This document shows positions 29,741-41,047 of a stretch of DNA of 64,000 nt, in pieces (within the stretch, counting starts at the first letter, position 1; each line of letters opens with the position of its first letter). Origin of the DNA: Acidobacterium capsulatum ATCC 51196 (GTDB taxonomy: Bacteria > Acidobacteriota > Terriglobia > Terriglobales > Acidobacteriaceae); the NCBI RefSeq assembly GCF_000022565.1, contig NC_012483.1:1240001-1304000 (forward strand), written 5' to 3'. A program made the translations under genes and the position numbers. The notes beneath the pieces were generated by a model. That model did not search any database. It saw only the letters and a list, made by a program, of their open reading frames with translations, and was not told the DNA's origin.

Positions 29741-29926
29741 ATGAAGCACTATCGCACCGTTCTGAATAATCTGCTGCAGGATGAATCCGGTCAGGATCTG
29801 ATCGAATACGCTCTCGTCGCCGCACTCATCGGCCTGGCCGCCGTTGCCGCCATGAGCGGAGTGGCCAACGGAATCAAGAACGCCTTTAACAGTGTCAACA
29901 ATCAGCTCACAACCGCCACCAGCTAA
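29741..29926 (+). CDS. flp: Flp family type IVb pilin
   Basis: The 61-residue product is the major pilin. Its leader ends in DESG, and the mature part would begin QDLIEYALVAALIGLAAVAAM, with the invariant Glu5-Tyr6 of Flp pilins and the hydrophobic helix. A strong ribosome site, GGAGGAGA, precedes the ATG. The mature pilin is about 45 residues and ends NNQLTTATS. It is flanked by a 241-bp upstream region and a strong hairpin, which suggests it is expressed more strongly than the assembly genes. Confidence 0.93.
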   Translation: MKHYRTVLNNLLQDESGQDLIEYALVAALIGLAAVAAMSGVANGIKNAFNSVNNQLTTATS

Positions 29927-30044: not shown

Positions 30045-30620
30045 ATGTACCTGGTTTTGACTGCTTTGGTGACTCCCATGAATGCTTCCCACCCTGCGCT
30101 GATCTATGTAATTGCAGCCTCCGCAGTTGCCCTTGCAGGCGCCGTCCACGATGCGCGCACCCGGCGGATTCCGAACAAGCTAACGGGGCCGGCGCTGCTG
30201 GCGGGGCTGCTGCTGCACTTTGCTTTTGACGGTTGGCGCGGAATGGGAATGGCAGCCCTGGCGGCGTTGCTGGCGTTTGTAGTCTTTCTGGTTTTCTTTC
30301 TTGCAGGCGGCATGGGCGCCGGCGATGTCAAGCTGATGACGGCTGTAGCCTGTGTGGCTGGGAATCACTTTGTGATCGAACTACTCGTCACCACGGCTAT
30401 CGCCGGCGGTGTGATGGCCCTTGGATTGGCACTGGCACGTGGCCGTTTCAAGCAGACCCTGGGCAATGTCGCGATGCTCATGTCGCACCATCGCCATGCG
30501 GGATTGCAACCACATCCTGAGCTGAATGTCAGAAATCAGCAGAGCCTGCGTCTGCCTTATGGACTGGCGATTGCTGCCGGATGCATTTTTACCCTGGCAT
30601 CGACCTATGTACGAGGTTAA
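30045..30620 (+). CDS. tadV: Prepilin peptidase TadV/CpaA (A24 family)
   Basis: This membrane aspartic peptidase cleaves Flp prepilin and TadE-type pseudopilins. The two catalytic Asp motifs are visible: VHDARTRRIPNKL near the N-terminus and GAGDVKLMTAV after the third membrane segment. Length is 191 residues from the ATG at 30045, or 180 from the ATG at 30078, which has a slightly better ribosome site (GGTGA) and is equally possible. The gene is the first of the assembly block and is followed by cpaB after 3 bp. Confidence 0.9.
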   Translation: MYLVLTALVTPMNASHPALIYVIAASAVALAGAVHDARTRRIPNKLTGPALLAGLLLHFAFDGWRGMGMAALAALLAFVVFLVFFLAGGMGAGDVKLMTAVACVAGNHFVIELLVTTAIAGGVMALGLALARGRFKQTLGNVAMLMSHHRHAGLQPHPELNVRNQQSLRLPYGLAIAAGCIFTLASTYVRG

Positions 30621-30623
30621 GCG

Positions 30624-31439
30624 ATGAAGAGCCGTCAACTAACCGCGCTGCTCGCCGCATTGGTCATCTCAGGCGGATTCACGTTGCTGCTCGGCAGAAA
30701 ACTGACTCACTCGGCGCATCGCGCCGCACCGCAAAAACAATATATGGCTGCGGCACGACCCATCGCAGTCGGTGAGGTGATTCAGGCCGCGGATGTAAAG
30801 ACGATTCTCTGGCCTGCGAATCTACCGTTGCAGGGTGGCATGGCTACGACCAAGGATGTCATAGGCCGCGCTGCCATTTTTCCTGTAACAGTGGGGCAAC
30901 CCATCCTCAGTACCGATCTGGCGGCTCCCGGCTCCAGCCTCGGCATCACGACGCGCATTCCCAATGGCATGCGTGCTATCGCGCTGCATACGGACGATGT
31001 GATTGCAGTGGGCGGTTTCATCTTTCCAGGCTCGCATGTGGATGTGCTGGTGACCTACCGGAATCCGGGAAGTCCGCAGCCGATTACCGCAACCGTACTG
31101 CAGAACGCACTGGTTCTGGCGACGGGGCATCAGACGCAGCCTGATCCGCAAGGCAAGCCAACCACCGTGAACATTGTGACTCTGCTGCTTTCCCCAGAGG
31201 ATGCAGAACGTGCCGTGCTGGCGAGCACACAGGGCACCATTCACTTTGTGCTGCGCAACGGCGCAGATCAGCAGAAGGGCATGCCTCCGCCGGCAGACCT
31301 GGCAGAGTTGGATGGCTACTCACCGCAACCGCGACACACTGTGGCATCTGGCGGGCACCGGCGGCAGGCGGTTTCAAAGCCAAAGCCATATGTGGTGCAA
31401 ACCATACTCGGAAGCAAGATTGAGGACAGTACGTTCTGA
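30624..31439 (+). CDS. cpaB: Flp pilus assembly protein CpaB/RcpC
   Basis: The 271-residue product has an N-terminal membrane segment (LTALLAALVISGGFTLLLG), then a SAF domain starting near MAAARPIAVGEVIQAADVKT and the CpaB/RcpC middle region ending SHVDVLVTYRNPG. It is periplasmic and thought to modulate the secretin channel. The C-terminus is Pro- and Gly-rich. It lies immediately before the secretin gene. Confidence 0.9.
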   Translation: MKSRQLTALLAALVISGGFTLLLGRKLTHSAHRAAPQKQYMAAARPIAVGEVIQAADVKTILWPANLPLQGGMATTKDVIGRAAIFPVTVGQPILSTDLAAPGSSLGITTRIPNGMRAIALHTDDVIAVGGFIFPGSHVDVLVTYRNPGSPQPITATVLQNALVLATGHQTQPDPQGKPTTVNIVTLLLSPEDAERAVLASTQGTIHFVLRNGADQQKGMPPPADLAELDGYSPQPRHTVASGGHRRQAVSKPKPYVVQTILGSKIEDSTF

Positions 31440-31441
31440 CC

Positions 31442-32884
31442 ATGAACATCACTGCTCCAACTCGGAGGAACCTACTGCATCGAGCGATGACCGTGGCGCT
31501 GATCGCAGTGCTGCCGCTTGCCGGTGCGCGCCCTGTCAATGCCGCGGCAGCAGCAGAAACGGCACAGGGGCCGGTCGATTTTGTGCAACTCAACAACAGC
31601 AATTTCATGTTGCATCTGCTGGTAGGCCGCTCCATGTTTCTGGACACTGCGACGCCGCTGAAGCGCGTCTATGTGAGCGATCCTGCCGTGTTGAATTCCT
31701 TTACGGCAAGTCCGCATCAGGTACTCATCACGGCCAAGGCGCCCGGGATCAGCAGCCTTGTGGTATGGGATGAAAGCGGCCGCAGCAATGTTTATACCGT
31801 GTCGTCTGACATTGACGTGAGCGGCTTGCAGGCCGCGATCAATGCAGCTTTTCCGCACGATATGATTCACGCTTCGGCGTTACAGGATCGAGTGACGCTG
31901 ACCGGCGAGGTTGCCACCGAGAGCGAAGCGGCGGCCGCAGAGAAACTTGCGCAAGGCTATGCCAAGACGGTGGAGAACTCGATCGATCTAGCGCCACAAC
32001 GCGTGCAACAGGTGCAACTGAAGGTGCGATTTGCTGAAGTGGATCGGACGCGCGCGCAACAACTTGGCTTCAACTTTATCAGCGCAGGCCGCAACGCCGC
32101 GGTGACCGGCACGCAGCAGTTCCCTTCGTTCAGCAACTACACATTGGGAGGAAATTCCACAGCGAATCCTATTACGGTGTCCAATCCGCTCGATCTGCTG
32201 CTGTACAGCTCTGACCTGAATCTGGGCGCTACTATCCAGGCTCTGGAAAATGACCAGGTACTGCAAATTCTGGCAGAGCCTACGATTACATCCATCAGTG
32301 GCGTCGAAGCCAGCTTTCTTTCCGGAGGTCAGTTTCCATTTCCCGTGGTGCAGGGCGGCACGACGGGCTTTACTTCGGTTACGGTTCAGTTCCGCCCTTA
32401 TGGGGTAAAGCTCGACTTCACACCGTATGTAAATCCCGATGGAACGATCCGGCTGAAGGTCGCACCCGAGGTAAGTGCGCTGGACTACACGAATGAAGTG
32501 CAGATTTCCGGCTACAGCATTCCTGCGATAGATACCCGGCGCGCGAAGACCGAAGTCGTTCTGAAAAATGGACAGAGTTTTGCGATCTCAGGGTTGCTTG
32601 ACCATCGCCTGACCAATGATTACGAGCGCATGCCTGGTATCTCGAGAATTCCGATTCTTGGCCAGCTCTTCCGGTCTTACCAGAAGCAGGCATCGACCAC
32701 GGACCTGATCGTGATTGTCACGCCGACCATCGTTGATCCGCTGCATGAGCCTACTGTTGCACCGAAGCTGCCCGCACTGGCCAAGCCTTATCTCGACAAC
32801 AAGCTTTTTGATCAGCGACTCAAAAAGCACCCACGCCACAAGAAGCAAAAGGGGAACCCTCCTCCGATGCCAGTGGAGCCATGA
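31442..32884 (+). CDS. cpaC: Flp pilus secretin CpaC/RcpA
   Basis: This is the outer membrane channel of the Tad apparatus. The 480-residue product has a signal peptide (ending near ARPVNAAA), an N-terminal pilus-associated domain, a BON-like segment (VTLTGEVATESEAAAAEKLA), and the C-terminal secretin domain with VEASFLSGGQFPFPV, FTPYVNPDGTIRLKV and the last strand region STTDLIVIVTPTIVDP. It overlaps the next gene by four bases. Confidence 0.93.
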   Translation: MNITAPTRRNLLHRAMTVALIAVLPLAGARPVNAAAAAETAQGPVDFVQLNNSNFMLHLLVGRSMFLDTATPLKRVYVSDPAVLNSFTASPHQVLITAKAPGISSLVVWDESGRSNVYTVSSDIDVSGLQAAINAAFPHDMIHASALQDRVTLTGEVATESEAAAAEKLAQGYAKTVENSIDLAPQRVQQVQLKVRFAEVDRTRAQQLGFNFISAGRNAAVTGTQQFPSFSNYTLGGNSTANPITVSNPLDLLLYSSDLNLGATIQALENDQVLQILAEPTITSISGVEASFLSGGQFPFPVVQGGTTGFTSVTVQFRPYGVKLDFTPYVNPDGTIRLKVAPEVSALDYTNEVQISGYSIPAIDTRRAKTEVVLKNGQSFAISGLLDHRLTNDYERMPGISRIPILGQLFRSYQKQASTTDLIVIVTPTIVDPLHEPTVAPKLPALAKPYLDNKLFDQRLKKHPRHKKQKGNPPPMPVEP

Positions 32885-34113
32885 ATATGACGATCCCAGG
32901 AACAGATACCGTCGTGGCCCTCTTCACGGTGTGCGCTGATGCTGCGCTCAATGAACTTGCCGCGCAGGTTCCACAGCAATTTCAAACGGTGCAATTTGCA
33001 GGAGAATTTCAGCAGTACATTTCCGCGAGCCAGCGGCCGCACTTTCCGCAAAGTATGCGCAGTGCCCCGTGCTGTGTTGCGCTCATAGATTTTGACCGTG
33101 ATGTGGAAGCGGCGCTGGAAACAGCGGAGACACTGCACACCATGGCTTCACCTCGCGTCACTTGCGTAGGCGTCTCGACAAATCTGGACACAGAGATCCT
33201 GCTGCGCGCCATGCGTGCCGGATGCAACGAGTTTCTTCAGAAGCCCCTCGACTCTACACACTTGGTAGAGACCCTCGAGCGAATTCAAGGACGAATTTTC
33301 TCGAAGATGGAATCGACAGCCGCGCGCGGCCGAGTGCTCTCAGTTTTTGGCGCCAAAGGCGGCGTAGGAACCACCACGCTTGCCGTGCACCTGGCCTCTT
33401 ACCTCGTCAGACGCTGCAGCAAGAAGACGCTCTTAATTGACCACTACCATCAGCTCGGGCACGTGTGCCTTCACCTGGGACTGAAGGAGAGCAACTATCA
33501 TTTTGACGACCTGATCCGCAATGTAGACCGGCTCGACTCAGATTTACTTCAGGGCTTTCTGCTGCGACATGCGAGCGGCCTCTCTGTCATTTGCTCCCCT
33601 GACACATGCACGGCTCGTTCCCGCGCAAGCTATGAAGATCTGGAACGCATCTTCGACTTTTTGCGCCGCGAATATGACTACATCATCCTCGACTCCTCGT
33701 TGCAGTACGAGGAGACCGCAGCGGCGATGATTCGCCTTTCAGACAGCGTCTATCTTGTATCCACGCCTGACGTAGCCGCGTTGCGCGATCTTTCGCGCCA
33801 CATCGAGAACCTGAGCCTTTCAGAGATGAACTCCTCCCGGCTGCGCATTGTGATCAATCGCGCTTCTTCTCACGATGCCATCGATGCCGAACAGATTGAG
33901 AAAGTGGTCCGCTTCCCTGTTTCCATCAGCGTTCCTAACAGCTACGCAGAGCTGCTAAAAGCGATCAATGCCGGAGAGCCGATCTCAGCACAGCGCCGGT
34001 CAGATTTTTCAACCAGCATTAGCAAGTGGGCCGATCAGGTGACCTCGGATTCTGGCGAAACCCACACTATGAACAGCGCGGGCGGGAAGAAGAAATTCGC
34101 CTTCTGGAAATAG
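32881..34113 (+). CDS. tadZ: Pilus localisation ATPase-like protein TadZ/CpaE
   Basis: TadZ sets the polar site for Tad assembly. The 410-residue product has an N-terminal receiver-like domain (about 60-140, with GCNEFLQKPLD near 114-124) and a MinD/ParA-type domain with the deviant Walker A motif KGGVGTTT at 159-166 and the later YDYIILDSSLQYEE. The ATG at 32881 overlaps the secretin stop; a second ATG two codons on is possible. TadA follows after 27 bp. Confidence 0.9.
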   Translation: MNMTIPGTDTVVALFTVCADAALNELAAQVPQQFQTVQFAGEFQQYISASQRPHFPQSMRSAPCCVALIDFDRDVEAALETAETLHTMASPRVTCVGVSTNLDTEILLRAMRAGCNEFLQKPLDSTHLVETLERIQGRIFSKMESTAARGRVLSVFGAKGGVGTTTLAVHLASYLVRRCSKKTLLIDHYHQLGHVCLHLGLKESNYHFDDLIRNVDRLDSDLLQGFLLRHASGLSVICSPDTCTARSRASYEDLERIFDFLRREYDYIILDSSLQYEETAAAMIRLSDSVYLVSTPDVAALRDLSRHIENLSLSEMNSSRLRIVINRASSHDAIDAEQIEKVVRFPVSISVPNSYAELLKAINAGEPISAQRRSDFSTSISKWADQVTSDSGETHTMNSAGGKKKFAFWK

Positions 34114-34140: not shown

Positions 34141-35499
34141 ATGGCCGCTGACCCAATTTTAAGATTGAATGCGATCACTCGTCCGACAGCGGTGGAGCCG
34201 AAATCAACAGCAGCTCCCCTGCCGCTGAACCGCTACCACGAGCTCAAGTCGGCCGTGCATCACGAGCTCATCAAACGAGTTGACCTGGAAAAGCTGGGCG
34301 TACTGCAGGGCCAGCGCAATGGTCAGGGGCAACTGCTCACCCTGATTCAACAACTGATTGGCGAACAGGGCGTTCCACTCAGCGCTATCGATCGTGACCG
34401 GCTTGCGCAGGAAGTACTGGATGAGGTTTTTGGCCTTGGTCCACTTGAGCCTTTGTTGCAGGACCCCACCGTCAACGACATTCTGGTCAATACGCACAAG
34501 GTTGTGTACGTTGAGCGCAAAGGTGTGCTGGAGCGCACGAACGTCGTCTTCAAAGACGAAACACACCTGATGCACATCATCGACAAGATCGTCTCTGCCG
34601 TGGGCCGTCGTGTGGACGAGTCTTCTCCCATGGTCGATGCTCGTCTGCTCGATGGATCACGCGTCAACATCGTGATTCCGCCGCTGGCAATCGATGGTCC
34701 GAGCATCTCGATCCGCCGATTTCCAAGCTCTCCGCTGACAGCCGACGATCTGGTACGCTTCCGCGCCTTGACGCCAGCCATGCTGGAACTGCTGAAGGGT
34801 GCGGTGCGCGCTCGCCTCAACATTGTGGTGGCCGGCGGTACGGGTGCTGGCAAAACGACCCTACTCAATGTGCTCTCTGGGTTTATCTCAGAGAGAGAGC
34901 GCATTGTTACGATTGAAGACTCCGCCGAATTGCAACTGAAGCAGGATCATGTGGTGCGGCTGGAATGCCGTCCTCCGAATGTGGAGGGCAAAGGAGCTAT
35001 TCGCCAGCGGGAACTAGTGATCAACGCACTGCGTATGCGCCCTGATCGCGTGGTGCTCGGTGAAATTCGCGGGGAAGAAGCCCTGGACATGCTGCAGGCC
35101 ATGAACACAGGCCACGATGGCTCCATCACCACCCTGCATGCGAACACTCCTCGCGACGCCATCTCGCGCCTGGAGACGATGTGCATGATGGGCAACGTCA
35201 CTTTGCCGGAAAAAGCAATCCGCAATCAGATTGCTTCAGCCGTGCACATTCTGATTCAAGCGCACCGCCTGAGCGATGGTAGCCGCCGCATCACGCATAT
35301 CAGCGAGATTACCGGAACCAGCGGCGATGTGGTCAGCATGCAGGATATCTTTCTCTTCGAAAAAATGGGGCTTGGCCCCAATGGGAAAGTGAAGGGCCGC
35401 TTTTACTCAACCGGAATTGTGCCGAAGTTTGCAGAGAAATTGAAGGCTGCCGGCATTCCATTCAATCTCAATATGCTTGATCAACCGGTGGAGGTGTAG
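34141..35499 (+). CDS. tadA: Secretion ATPase TadA/CpaF
   Basis: TadA is the hexameric ATPase that powers pilus polymerisation at the inner membrane. The 452-residue product shows Walker [10 protein letters not shown] at 232-240, an Asp box, [11 protein letters not shown], and the Walker B region [11 protein letters not shown] at 307-317, then [13 protein letters not shown] with the His box. Length is usual for CpaF. It ends 2 bp before tadB, and the run TadZ-TadA-TadB-TadC is the usual order. Confidence 0.95.
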
Positions 35500-35501
35500 C
35501 G

Positions 35502-36473
35502 ATGTTGCTGATCCTTATCTTCCTCATCATGCTGCTGATCAGCTTTGCGATGATTGCGGTGCTGTCCCGCCCATCCAAACAGGAAAAAAAGGTCTATCAA
35601 CGGCTCGATGCACTGACATCGCGCGGCTCCGTGCAGGAAAACAAAGCTGGTACTCCAGAGACGCTGCTCAAGCAGCCTCTTGGAGCAGGCAGTGTGGCAC
35701 GGGTGGATGCATTCCTGGACCGCTTCGATTTCTATCCGCGGCTGGAGAAGATAATCCTGCAGGCCCACCGCAACACAACTCCGGGACGTGTCCTTTTGCA
35801 GACTGGAGGATTTTGTATTGGAGGATTCATTGCAGCTCGTTTGCTCTATCCGCAACTGATCGTAGAGATCGGCGCTCCAGTTATTGGCCTGGTATTTCCG
35901 TTCGTCGCGTTAAATTTTCAACGTGCTCAACGATTGAAGAAGTTCAACGCCGCGCTGCCTGACTCTATCGACTTACTCGGACGAGCTCTGCGCGCCGGAC
36001 ATTCCGTTGCATCCGCTATTGAGGTGGTTTCAGAGCAGGGCCAGGAGCCTGTTGCCTCGGAATTTGGCGAAGTCTTTCGCGCACAGAATTTTGGACTTCC
36101 CTTTCGGGACGCCATGCTGCAACTGGCAGAACGAGTGCCATCAAGCGATTTGCGTTTCCTGGTGACAGCCATGATGGTGCAAAAGGAGACGGGCGGCAAT
36201 CTCACGGAGATTCTTGATCGCACGACCTACGTCATTCGCGAGCGGCTCCGCATTCAAGGTGAGGTGAAAACAAAAACGGCGCAAGGTCGGCTCACGGGCG
36301 TGATTCTGGCATTGCTGCCCATCATTCTTGGAATTCTCATCAATGTGATCAACCCCGATTATGCGAAGCCACTCTTCACTGATCCGCTTGGGAAGAAGAT
36401 GCTGTATGCGGGCGCGGGACTAATCTCTGTTGGAGCATTCTTTATCAACAAGATCGTAAAGATCGAAGTGTAA
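35502..36473 (+). CDS. tadB: Inner membrane platform protein TadB
   Basis: The 323-residue product has two N-terminal membrane segments and a cytoplasmic type II secretion F domain (LPDSIDLLGRALRAGHSVASAIEVV ... MVQKETGGNLTEILDRT), followed by two C-terminal membrane helices. It forms the inner membrane platform together with TadC. It lies between tadA and tadC with 2 and 5 bp spacing. Confidence 0.93.
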   Translation: MLLILIFLIMLLISFAMIAVLSRPSKQEKKVYQRLDALTSRGSVQENKAGTPETLLKQPLGAGSVARVDAFLDRFDFYPRLEKIILQAHRNTTPGRVLLQTGGFCIGGFIAARLLYPQLIVEIGAPVIGLVFPFVALNFQRAQRLKKFNAALPDSIDLLGRALRAGHSVASAIEVVSEQGQEPVASEFGEVFRAQNFGLPFRDAMLQLAERVPSSDLRFLVTAMMVQKETGGNLTEILDRTTYVIRERLRIQGEVKTKTAQGRLTGVILALLPIILGILINVINPDYAKPLFTDPLGKKMLYAGAGLISVGAFFINKIVKIEV

Positions 36474-36478
36474 CTGCC

Positions 36479-37378
36479 ATGACTACGCTTTTTTATCTCG
36501 CTCTTGCCATCATGCTCTTCAGCGTTAGCGCGCTATTGGTGAACCTTCTTCTGGCTGCTCCCGAGCGTACGGCAGCGCGGCGCATTGCAGAAGTAACGCA
36601 GCACGAAGTTGTACGCGGTCCATCCCCCACCAAGGTTCTTGGCAAGAGCATGCTGCATGCCATGAAGGGACTGCGTGTGACGCTGGGGATGGTGGAAAAC
36701 CAGAAATTGCGCGACCGCTTCATGGCCGCCGGAATGCGCAAGCCGGAGCATATGGAACTCTATCTGGGCGCGCGTCTGCTGGCTCCTCTCTTGGGCGTGC
36801 TGATAGGGACGTTCTTCCCAAGCAATACATTTCTGTGGGCCGTCGCACTTGCAGGTGCCGGATATCTTGGTCCGGACTTCTGGCTGGAGCGCAAAGTGAA
36901 GGGACGCCGTCACAGAATCAGCCGCAGCATGCCCGACGCTATCGATCTGCTTGTGATCTGCGTCGATGCCGGGCTTGGACTCGACCAGGCGATGTTGCGT
37001 GTCGGACAGGAACTAGCCGTCAGCCATCCTGAGATCAATGAAGAGTTTCTACAGATCAACCGGGAGCAGCGAGCAGGACGGCCTCGTGTCGATGCATGGA
37101 AGGGTTTTGCTGAGCGCACAAGATTGCCTGAGATTCAGAACTTCGTCAGCATGCTTGTGCAGACAGAACGATTTGGCACGCCAATCACGCGCGCGCTGAA
37201 CACCTTCTCAGACAGCATGCGCCTCAAGCGCAAGCAGATTGCAGAAGAGAAAGCGGCAAAGACAACCGTAAAAATGCTCTTCCCACTGGTTCTTTTTATC
37301 TTCCCCTGCATTTTTATTGTTCTGCTAGGCCCCGCGTTTATCACCATTTCCAAAGGGCTGTTTCATATGACTCAATAG
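36479..37378 (+). CDS. tadC: Inner membrane platform protein TadC
   Basis: The 299-residue product resembles TadB in layout, with the F domain segment MPDAIDLLVICVDAGLGLDQAM and the later TERFGTPITRALNTFSDSMR, and the end VLFIFPCIFIVLLGPAFITI. It completes the platform pair. The 139 bp after it before the next ATG hold a TTGACA-like word but no obvious terminator. Confidence 0.93.
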   Translation: MTTLFYLALAIMLFSVSALLVNLLLAAPERTAARRIAEVTQHEVVRGPSPTKVLGKSMLHAMKGLRVTLGMVENQKLRDRFMAAGMRKPEHMELYLGARLLAPLLGVLIGTFFPSNTFLWAVALAGAGYLGPDFWLERKVKGRRHRISRSMPDAIDLLVICVDAGLGLDQAMLRVGQELAVSHPEINEEFLQINREQRAGRPRVDAWKGFAERTRLPEIQNFVSMLVQTERFGTPITRALNTFSDSMRLKRKQIAEEKAAKTTVKMLFPLVLFIFPCIFIVLLGPAFITISKGLFHMTQ

Positions 37379-37517
37379 GAGCAAGAGAGGTGCTGTGAAA
37401 CAGCCACAAAAGAGAGATTAGAACAGTTTGCTGTAAAGGATGTATCGCCCCGAATGCTATCGCCGCCTGAAGCAGCGATTTTGACAACAAACCATTACTC
37501 AAGAGGAGAGAGAAACC

Positions 37518-37613
37518 ATGATCAGCACTACTTTGATTCGCATCATCGCAGGTATCGGAATCGTTGTTGTAGCCGCTATTCTCGTTATGCGCCGCAAGAA
37601 CAAGGCAGCCTAA
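37518..37613 (+). CDS. 31-residue single-pass membrane peptide
   Basis: The ATG at 37518 is preceded by AAGAGGAGAGA, a very good ribosome site. The peptide is one hydrophobic helix (LIRIIAGIGIVVVAAILVM) followed by a basic tail, RRKNKAA. This topology predicts an inner membrane peptide with its tail in the cytoplasm. It does not match a family I know. It lies after tadC and only 6 bp before the DUF192 gene, so the two are probably coupled. The gene would be missed by common length cut-offs. Confidence 0.65.
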   Translation: MISTTLIRIIAGIGIVVVAAILVMRRKNKAA

Positions 37614-37619
37614 CCACAG

Positions 37620-37979
37620 ATGAAGCAGGTACGCATCTTCAACAAGAGCAAGGCTACCGTGGCCGGCGAACGAATCGCGGTAGCCAACTCTTTTCTAACC
37701 CGGTTGATCGGCCTGATGGGCCGTACGTCCTTGGCTCCGGGCGAAGGCATGTTGATCACGCCCTCCTCAGGAGTACATACGTGCTGGATGCGCATGAAGA
37801 TCGACGTGGTCGCCCTCGACAGGATGAAGCGTGTACTGCGAGTGGGACATGAAGTAAAGCCTTGGCGACTGTGCGGGCTCACACTGCGCACGGCGCACGT
37901 GCTCGAACTGCCCCCTGGACAGATTCGAGCCTGTGGCATAGAGGTAGGCGACGAGCTCGAAATCGACCAACAGAATTAG
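37620..37979 (+). CDS. DUF192 family protein
   Basis: The 119-residue product matches DUF192: an early NSFLTRLIGLMGRTSLAPGEGMLI, then VHTCWMRMKIDVVALD, which resembles the family core (H-x-F/C-W-M-x-x-x-x-x-P/V-I-D), and the end VLELPPGQIRACGIEVGDEL. The function of the family is not established. It lacks a signal peptide here. Its ATG has a weak ribosome site, six bases after the stop of the 31-residue peptide gene, in line with coupling. A terminator-like hairpin follows. Confidence 0.8.
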   Translation: MKQVRIFNKSKATVAGERIAVANSFLTRLIGLMGRTSLAPGEGMLITPSSGVHTCWMRMKIDVVALDRMKRVLRVGHEVKPWRLCGLTLRTAHVLELPPGQIRACGIEVGDELEIDQQN

Positions 37980-38068: not shown

Positions 38069-41047
38069 CTATTGAGCCACCTGATTGAGCCTGTCGAAGT
38101 TGAGAATGGCATTGAACACCAACGGATATGTGCCGATGGTTTCTCCGCGATAAACCGGATTGATAGCGAACAGAAGCGTATTACCGCTTCCATAATGTGC
38201 ATCTACTACGACCGGCCGGTTGGCGATATTACCTGCGCGGACCAGCAGTCCAGAGAGCAGTAGTCCATTGGCTGGGCCAAGGCGCACCAGCACCTGCGGA
38301 CGATCTGCCACCGGAATCACCCACGGGTTGTTCCGCGTCTGCTCAATATTGAGTGGGGTTGCCTGCCACGGCTCGGGGGACGGCAGCACCACTTGCGGAG
38401 CAGGCGGACGAGCTTCCGGCGTGTCGACCGCATTCGGACCACCTCGTCCCGTGGGGCGCTTATAGTCCTGCTGGGTAGGCACATATTGCCGCACCATCTC
38501 ATTGCTAATCGCAAAGGTCATGCCCGATTCGCTATAGACGCCAAAGTTGCCACGGTAGCCGGCAAGGACTGGACCGGCGCTCATCGGAGTTGCATTCAAC
38601 ACCGAGCCGACGACGCGAGTGCCGCTGGTCTGATTCATAAATACTCCAGGCGCCATACCTTCATCGATGGCGAACCGAGCCGTACTCTCTGACGTAATCA
38701 GCAGGCCGCCCTGACTCACAAAGCTCTTCAAATGCTGGAGTCCATCGAGACCCAATTCGGGGCGCATGTCGGCGGTAGAATCGATGCGGCCAAGATTGGG
38801 AGTGATGGGCGACTTCTCCCACGGGATGGGGTTGCCCCACATCGGCATGCCATCGATGATCTGCTCATCGCTCACATAACTGACGGGTGCGAAGATGATC
38901 ACATCATATTTACTGCGCAGGTCCTGCTCTTTTGCAACTGTTTGAGTGCTGATGTAAGCGTAGGGTACATGGAGTTTGTCGAATGCGAGACGCCACCAGC
39001 CTTCGGTCTGCGTGGTAAGCCACGTGTGCATGAAGGCAATCCGTGGCAAGGGAGCTACGTGCATCTTCACGTTTGGCATGGTTGCGAGCGTGATGCCCTG
39101 TAAATCCGCGACGTGCAGTGCGTCACGTAGCTTTGTCTCATCAGCATCTTGAATGAGGAGCGAGCCTGCATGAAAGCTGTGCCCTGCCGCATTGAAGCTC
39201 GCATCCGCAATCGAGACCTTGGCGTCTTTCATGGCATAGCGCAGGCCGAGCAGAGAGATCTCGCCCTTTTGATCCACGGCTACAATGCCACCACCCGTCA
39301 GCGTCTGGTCAGCTTGCTTCTGCTCCAGCGCAGCCACAGACGGCACTGGTGTCATGGGCGCCTTTAGGATCCCATCATCGGTGACGCGCAGTGTATGTAC
39401 TCCAAAGAGGTCGGGGAAAGACCATCCTGTATCGTCATAGGGATGCTTCTGCGGATCATCAGGCGCCCAGTACTGACGGTCGAGCAACGCGTCGGCAATC
39501 CGCGAGTAAGGCTGATCCATGCGGATGACATAGCTTCCAGCAGGGATGGTCGTGGTCACGGCCGGAGCGTTCGGCTGATTCTGAATATCCGGCTTCTGCG
39601 TGATGGTGAATGGCTGGCTCAGGCGTTGTATCTCGACATGCTGCAGCTTCATCACCTGCAACAGAGCGACGCGGCGGCTCGACGCACCATCAGGGTAGAT
39701 GACGTAAGCGGCGGGTCCTGCCAGACTGGGTTTCTCGACAGAGCGCTTCGACTTCAGGTAGTAGTTCTGCAACCACTCTGAGCCGTGGTGCGAGAAGTAA
39801 GACAGCGTGCTCAGCAGCGCGGTCTCTTCATAGTTATTGTTGTCGCGCTGCGACCACATGGTCTCTGGCAACGGCGGATTGGGCTTGTACCAGGTACGCT
39901 CATACTCATCAGGATCGAGAATGCGCTTTTCAGTATCAGCGCCGCCATTGCCAAAGGTTTCATACAAACGGCTGATGCCGTTGTGCATTGCCGCCAGAAA
40001 CATCAGGTAGCCGGGACTCCAAGTGTCAAAGTCGCCATGCGTAAAGACACCCGGCATGCCAAGCTGCGTCATCGTTTGCACGTTGTTCCAGCCAAGCTGC
40101 TGCCACTCGCCAGTCAAGATCGGATCGATCCATGCATTGTAGGGGCCGTCGCCCACCGTGTTGTCGTAGAGGAACGGCACTGACTCGTGCAGATCATGCA
40201 GCACCTGGGCATGCCAATCGAGATAGGTGTTCAGCACGTTGCGCGTCAGATCGAGCGACATGCCCATGGCATCGCGGTTGTTGTCATGCGCAACGTAGTG
40301 GCCCCAGTACAGCAGGTGCGGCCACTGCTCGTTTGGATGCGCCCGATGCCAGCGGTATATGTCCACCATGCGGTCGCGGCCATCCACCTCGACCACCGGG
40401 GTGATGAGGACAATCATGTGCGACCGAATGTACTGAATGTAAGGCGAATTATCGACCGCAAGCCGGTAAGCCAATTCCATCAGCGCTGTAGGCGCGCCGG
40501 TTTCAATGGAGTGGATGGTACCGGTGATGTAGTAGACCGGGTAGGACTGCTTTTCCAATTGCGCTGCGACTCTGTCATCCATGTGAATGGTGCGCGGATC
40601 GGCCAGCTTTGCAAGCCGAGCATTGTTAGCCTGCTGCTGGTCAAGCAAGGGCTGATCCGCAATCGCGACGGCGATCATCTCGCGGCCTTCTTCTGTGTGG
40701 CCGATGGTGTAAACACGCACGCGCGGGGTGCTCTTGGCCAGCAGACGGAAGTACTTGTAGACGGTCTCCGCATAGGGCAGCGTGTTGGGCGCCCCGCTCA
40801 CATCGCCCAGCACAGCTTCAGGCGTGGGAACTGTCTTCGACGCCGGCAGATAGTCGGTCAGCGGAGAGTTGAAGTACGGCTCAGTGGTGTACTGCTTGAT
40901 GTGTTGGGTGTATTGATGATCGATCGGCTGCTGCGGATCGCGCGCGAAGTAGTTCAGCGTATCGCTGCTCTGAGCAAAAAGGAAAGAGGAGCATGCCATC
41001 AAAATGGCTGCAGTCACAAGAGAGCGGAACCGGGGCATATCGGGCAT
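38069..41047 (-). CDS. Exported M14-family zinc carboxypeptidase-like protein
   Basis: The product has 992 residues and a signal peptide ending near FLFAQ (about 26). The M14 domain spans about 80-400: the zinc motif HSIE (H179, E182) in YITGTIHSIETGAP, then NNRD at 256-259 and a candidate third zinc ligand in LHDLHES (about 284-287). After it comes a region of about 300 residues with no clear match and a segment (about 650-850) that resembles a class I glutamine amidotransferase-like fold without an evident nucleophile. It is probably periplasmic or secreted, and degrades peptides. It is transcribed after guaA, 117 bp downstream, across a strong hairpin. Confidence 0.85.
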   Translation of the reverse strand: MPDMPRFRSLVTAAILMACSSFLFAQSSDTLNYFARDPQQPIDHQYTQHIKQYTTEPYFNSPLTDYLPASKTVPTPEAVLGDVSGAPNTLPYAETVYKYFRLLAKSTPRVRVYTIGHTEEGREMIAVAIADQPLLDQQQANNARLAKLADPRTIHMDDRVAAQLEKQSYPVYYITGTIHSIETGAPTALMELAYRLAVDNSPYIQYIRSHMIVLITPVVEVDGRDRMVDIYRWHRAHPNEQWPHLLYWGHYVAHDNNRDAMGMSLDLTRNVLNTYLDWHAQVLHDLHESVPFLYDNTVGDGPYNAWIDPILTGEWQQLGWNNVQTMTQLGMPGVFTHGDFDTWSPGYLMFLAAMHNGISRLYETFGNGGADTEKRILDPDEYERTWYKPNPPLPETMWSQRDNNNYEETALLSTLSYFSHHGSEWLQNYYLKSKRSVEKPSLAGPAAYVIYPDGASSRRVALLQVMKLQHVEIQRLSQPFTITQKPDIQNQPNAPAVTTTIPAGSYVIRMDQPYSRIADALLDRQYWAPDDPQKHPYDDTGWSFPDLFGVHTLRVTDDGILKAPMTPVPSVAALEQKQADQTLTGGGIVAVDQKGEISLLGLRYAMKDAKVSIADASFNAAGHSFHAGSLLIQDADETKLRDALHVADLQGITLATMPNVKMHVAPLPRIAFMHTWLTTQTEGWWRLAFDKLHVPYAYISTQTVAKEQDLRSKYDVIIFAPVSYVSDEQIIDGMPMWGNPIPWEKSPITPNLGRIDSTADMRPELGLDGLQHLKSFVSQGGLLITSESTARFAIDEGMAPGVFMNQTSGTRVVGSVLNATPMSAGPVLAGYRGNFGVYSESGMTFAISNEMVRQYVPTQQDYKRPTGRGGPNAVDTPEARPPAPQVVLPSPEPWQATPLNIEQTRNNPWVIPVADRPQVLVRLGPANGLLLSGLLVRAGNIANRPVVVDAHYGSGNTLLFAINPVYRGETIGTYPLVFNAILNFDRLNQVAQ

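Follow-up and report, generated by a model that had tools for sequence, protein, structure and literature searches.

Tad pili are widespread; their extension and retraction are driven by one and the same ATPase acting through the platform proteins TadB and TadC, and how this is achieved is still being worked out. Single-pass proteins of about 30–50 amino acids that bind a larger membrane complex are familiar from other settings, AcrZ, CydX and KdpF being examples. In an in situ model of the Caulobacter machine, the base of the density at the inner membrane is assigned to CpaG and CpaH (TadB and TadC in the alternative nomenclature), and the part of that report available to us names no such small subunit (PMC13170226). 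The accessible part of another report describes an uncharacterised DUF192 gene towards the 3' end of the Tad operon of Bulleidia (PMC12786226). Here we describe a short ORF at the tadC end of a tad cluster, the product of which we regard, with moderate confidence and on comparative grounds, as a conserved micro-subunit that spans the membrane once and belongs to the Tad (Flp/type IVc) pilus machine, most likely at the TadB/TadC platform. What we rate as new would be a hitherto unrecognised micro-component in a Tad system, the Tad machine itself being known; a search of the open-licence literature by titles and abstract openings returned no description of such a peptide.

The window (the whole stretch of 64,000 nucleotides analysed here) comes from the genome of Acidobacterium capsulatum ATCC 51196, a single 4.13 Mb contig, and contains the tad cluster detailed in table 1. 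The cluster also encodes a TadE-like protein (PF07811), a second TadE-like protein without a Pfam match and a TadG-like protein (PF13400). The peptide ORF begins after a gap of 139 nt from the end of tadC (37378), and its product consists of a hydrophobic stretch followed by RRKNKAA. The initial annotation had pointed to a tiny ORF with a ribosome site, a hydrophobic helix and this basic tail, ending 6 bp before a DUF192 gene, and both the ORF with its signals and the gap between its stop and the DUF192 ATG (37614-37619) were found as described. Small single-helix peptides of this kind are easily overlooked by gene finders. An overlapping ORF (37454-37852) is without a Pfam match, and a convergent 992-codon ORF on the minus strand (38069-41047) adjoins the end of the tad cluster.

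Table 1. Features of the tad cluster in the window and profile matches located away from tad clusters.
Feature	Position	Strand	Basis or remark
Flp major pilin, distinct from the peptide	29741..29926	+	PF04964, 35.4 bits, above cut-off
Prepilin peptidase (putative)	30045-30620		Named from position and sequence, no profile match
CpaB (putative)	30624-31439		Named from position and sequence, no profile match
cpaC/rcpA secretin	31442..32884	+	PF00263, E 3.7e-44
CpaE (putative)	32881-34113		Named from position and sequence, no profile match
cpaF/tadA motor ATPase	34141..35499	+	PF00437, E 5.6e-59
tadB, second platform protein	35502..36473	+	PF00482, E 7.8e-20
tadC, inner-membrane platform protein (T2SSF domain)	36479..37378	+	PF00482, E 1.5e-18
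Shine-Dalgarno AGGAG	37504..37508	+	9 nt 5' of the peptide ATG; read from sequence
Membrane micropeptide ORF, 31 codons	37518..37613	+	Product MISTTLIRIIAGIGIVVVAAILVMRRKNKAA; single-pass (predicted)
DUF192 (UPF0127) protein, 119 aa	37620..37979	+	PF02643, E 8.1e-22
Non-tad matches	L316:3251-3337, L332:3452-3538, L334:3194-3268, L335:3334-3420; also L325, L328		Acidic DDF/DEF/NDF tail

That so short an ORF might be open by chance was ruled out with a profile that omitted the window's own sequence and gave the peptide ORF 42.5 bits (E 3e-12), as against 5.5 bits (E 1.1) for the second best of the 1675 frames of the window and a top score of 13.2 bits over 20 triplet shuffles of the window; the ORF is therefore more than a chance reading frame. 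A profile of six peptides, the window sequence included, recovered the ORF from its own genome with E 3.2e-16, and with a wider profile (A3) it was the only credible match in the genome (E 1.1e-11, the runner-up at 0.17). The initial annotation had envisaged that the ORF might lack conservation in relatives that keep tadC and DUF192 adjacent; it is conserved there, and the first relatives turned up precisely between these two genes, as in the window. Among the 100 peptides collected, 92 are 30–33 amino acids long and 98 have an ATG or GTG start, and a GGAG-containing Shine-Dalgarno site lies 5' of 90 of the 100 related ORFs. The pN value is lower than pS in all 63 close pairs (pooled ratio 0.198) and in all 19 non-overlapping pairs, all of which were pre-selected at an amino-acid identity of at least 75%, a selection that itself favours low pN. 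Sequence comparison establishes the ORF as real, conserved in its coding and linked to tadC, and we infer that it is translated and that the product enters the membrane in a defined topology.

To assess the linkage to tadC, 299 genomes were drawn from the class, and a tadC match is present in 165; loci were examined for 110 of these 165, chosen from the better-scoring matches listed, and one (L143), whose contig ends before the tadC stop, was left out. In 88 of the resulting 109 loci the peptide is encoded no more than 1 kb downstream of tadC, a count that holds for the better-scoring matches listed and for a profile refined on matches from those very loci; the related ORFs near tadC have 29–37 codons. 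In three loci the peptide lies approximately 5 kb downstream of tadC, towards the distal end of the cluster; another 18 are without a profile match for it. A scan of contigs of named genomes for tadC relatives, mostly from Acidobacteriaceae or other Acidobacteriota, found the peptide in 48 of the 80 loci kept, the carriers including Granulicella aggregans M8UP14 (L241), Silvibacterium bohemicum S15 (L266) and Occallatibacter savannae AB23 (L270). Within the window's family, and counting matches at E≤1e-3, the peptide was detected in 30 of the 41 tadC-positive and none of the 33 tadC-negative genomes listed (Fisher p 7e-12), 13 of the 33 being called negative from their presence in the peptide listing and absence among the tadC positives listed. 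Both other genomes of the genus have a second tad locus with its own copy of the peptide. Outside the class and within the same phylum, seven genomes match at E 1.1e-5 or better and 13 more weakly (best E 5e-4 to 0.008); six of the seven encode the peptide directly 3' of tadC and the seventh about 1 kb downstream of cpaF. The link to the pilus proposed in the initial annotation was thus upheld, the peptide being encoded inside the tad cluster and tracking tad genes across genomes, if not universally so.

Loci without a profile match are of several kinds. At the equivalent place in six of the 18 (L159, L161, L163, L164, L167 and L179) there is a diverged small hydrophobic ORF, the start of which overlaps the tadC stop in L167. 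Elsewhere the peptide lies in the same genome at another place: the genome of L052 has it further down (L218), where the ORF is flanked by two flp pilin genes and then followed by DUF192 (L218:2118-2962), that of L075 has a copy elsewhere in the same cluster (L220) and that of L071 has one on a contig with tadG (L219). A screen of 16 loci lacking the peptide for diverged small ORFs, with fixed limits on length, hydrophobicity and Shine-Dalgarno site, found none, 11 of the 41 tadC-positive genomes of the window's family have no peptide match at E≤1e-3, and four Gemmatimonadota tad loci are without the peptide. As several tad loci do without it, the peptide is no universal requirement of Tad machines. 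It is nevertheless, judging by its sequence and position, a real and conserved companion of tadC across many Acidobacteriota.

The AlphaFold model of the peptide is one helix spanning residues 2–30 (mean pLDDT 92.6). Net charge is higher on the C-side than on the N-side of the helix in all 100 peptides and, by the positive-inside rule, the more positive C-side therefore suggests an N-out/C-in orientation, predicted to be the reverse of that of the Flp prepilin. No family in Pfam or NCBIfam claims the peptide, the matches being weak, scattered and mostly to anchor-type helices, and a solved relative was rejected, since the three matches among PDB chains are at chance level (best E 0.75). The LPXTG model TIGR01167 gives the window peptide 15.4 bits, under its curated cut-off of 15.9, and LPXTG/CTERM models searched against 55 family members yield only scattered weak matches. 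Such anchor segments likewise combine one helix with an Arg cluster and match single members weakly, but the peptide is a stand-alone ORF with no sorting motif or cargo domain, and a fragment of a sorting signal was rejected on the missing motif and the sub-cut-off score.

The features just described bear on several other explanations of the peptide. That it is a minimal pilin or pseudopilin, entering the filament or priming its tip, is suggested by its small size, its single helix, the occasional tandem copies and the proximity to flp genes in L218; the Flp/Tad major pilin (PF04964, Flp_Fap) is also small, tad-encoded, built around one hydrophobic helix and sometimes multicopy. Prepilins are, however, characterised by a Gly-leader peptidase site, then a Glu/Tyr motif, and by an N-in orientation. 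Both the site and the motif are absent from the peptide sequences, and the basic cluster follows the helix rather than preceding it, so that the predicted orientation is opposite to that of a prepilin. The peptide has no Flp_Fap match either, and the locus has a flp gene of its own, which is the sole PF04964 match in the genome up to E 10 (window 29774-29905). Identity with the Flp pilin was rejected on the strength of this true flp gene and the opposite topology, and we consider a pilin-like role in general improbable. The initial annotation suggested a functional pair with the DUF192 gene; read as anchoring or regulation of the cytoplasmic DUF192 protein by the peptide, such a pair is in our view quite unlikely, and it was not borne out by the wider sampling. 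The two genes are adjacent on the same strand in the window, 6 bp apart, and the Bulleidia operon likewise carries an uncharacterised DUF192/UPF0127 gene at its 3' end, according to the accessible part of that report (PMC12786226). With DUF192 scored within 1 kb, and with DUF192 alone meaning that there is no profile-detected peptide near tadC, the 109 loci comprise 69 with both, 18 with the peptide alone, 17 with DUF192 alone, four with neither and one undetermined, so that the two do not consistently co-occur. In both congeners (L228, L229) the peptide has kept its place behind tadC, and no DUF192 was found there. L108-L110 have the two genes at a distance of about 5 kb. In two Gemmatimonadota loci (L298, L309) the peptide is missing and 9 nt separate DUF192 from tadC, so that the tadC–DUF192 neighbourhood is wider than the peptide. 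The tight arrangement in the window is also unusual: across loci, the spacing between the peptide and the DUF192 domain match can be anything from 0 to 386 nt, and among the 69 spacings to the start of that match only L121 is closer. As the peptide and DUF192, which has no membrane helix, occur independently, each seems to track tad separately and the 6 bp spacing to be a local matter; by this pattern of occurrence, DUF192 is a neighbour of the peptide and not its obligate partner.

The same short gap would permit coupled translation in the window, and the ORF could then be a cis-acting leader that sets the translation of the downstream gene, but its amino-acid sequence is under purifying selection, the peptide is present where no DUF192 follows, and the spacing to the DUF192 domain match varies as given above. 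Moreover, the fold of the region is no better than that of shuffles (z +1.79), no promoter-like site was found in it, and the one terminator-like site is on the minus strand and within shuffle expectation; a leader or attenuator was rejected on these grounds and appears very improbable. Type I toxins are of comparable length, with a hydrophobic helix, a basic tail and tandem copies, all of which the peptide resembles. The strong Shine-Dalgarno sites, the persistent place after tadC and the absence of the peptide from the tadC-negative genomes listed for the window's family speak against a small membrane toxin, to which we give hardly any credence. A broader reading, unlikely in our opinion, takes the peptide as belonging to a general family of Acidobacteriota membrane micropeptides for which tad is one of several contexts and whose function is not pilus-specific. 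It is prompted by 20 further loci matching the peptide profile: ten have tadC beside the peptide and one (L318) has DUF192 beside it, three (L320, L323, L333) have no tad gene on the available stretch, two of them lying on contigs shorter than 3.4 kb, and six (L316, L325, L328, L332, L334, L335) have no tad cluster around the peptide, the only trace of tad being a weak cpaE match, found close to the end of L316, and another where L332 begins. Tad loci are therefore not the sole setting of the family or its look-alikes, and an enolase gene is found near four of these six loci. On the other hand, the non-tad members have a distinct acidic tail of the DDF/DEF type, and most of the examined loci of the class as well as further genomes outside it are tad-linked. 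A longer subfamily (L317, L319, L321, L322, L324, L326, L327, L329, L330), which is extended at the N-terminus by a hydrophobic segment and has a conserved tail of the KEDWS/KDDWS type, follows a more distant tadC.

Returning to the Tad machine, we think it probable that the peptide serves as a minor component of the apparatus that builds the pilus, with the TadB/TadC platform as its putative binding partner. TadB and TadC (CpaG/CpaH, PF00482) are likewise inner-membrane proteins and are encoded beside the peptide, but they are polytopic, about 300 amino acids long and bear no sequence relation to it. Encoded at the tadC end of the operon, the peptide would insert into the membrane so that its N-terminus faces the periplasm and its Arg/Lys tail the cytoplasm, and would most likely pack against the bundle of platform helices. 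Such packing might stabilise the platform or tune its contact with the CpaF motor, near which the basic tail would sit, and an action on pilus extension or retraction can be hypothesized. AcrZ, CydX and KdpF offer a parallel in being similar in size and single-pass, and they belong to different complexes. Tandem copies within 1 kb occur in seven loci (two copies in five, three in two) and suggest an effect of dosage or the formation of hetero-oligomers. A bolder and rather doubtful extension of this proposal would be that an unrecognised micro-subunit of the Tad motor platform, present in much of the phylum and with two or three paralogues in some loci, sets how the one bifunctional CpaF motor assembles or switches; other Tad machines would lack it or use unannotated analogues. 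If a role in the platform is true, the Tad machine has an extra part that is missing from the family libraries searched and easy to delete or tag. The case also shows that comparative genomics alone is enough to check whether a small ORF next to a machine gene is conserved.

Two minor observations were made along the way. Three tandem copies of the peptide follow tadC in L115, L049 and L274, the copy number differing among relatives. A metagenome-assembled genome recorded as Rhodanobacteraceae (L247) carries an Acidobacteria-like tadC together with the peptide and DUF192, probably on a mis-binned contig.
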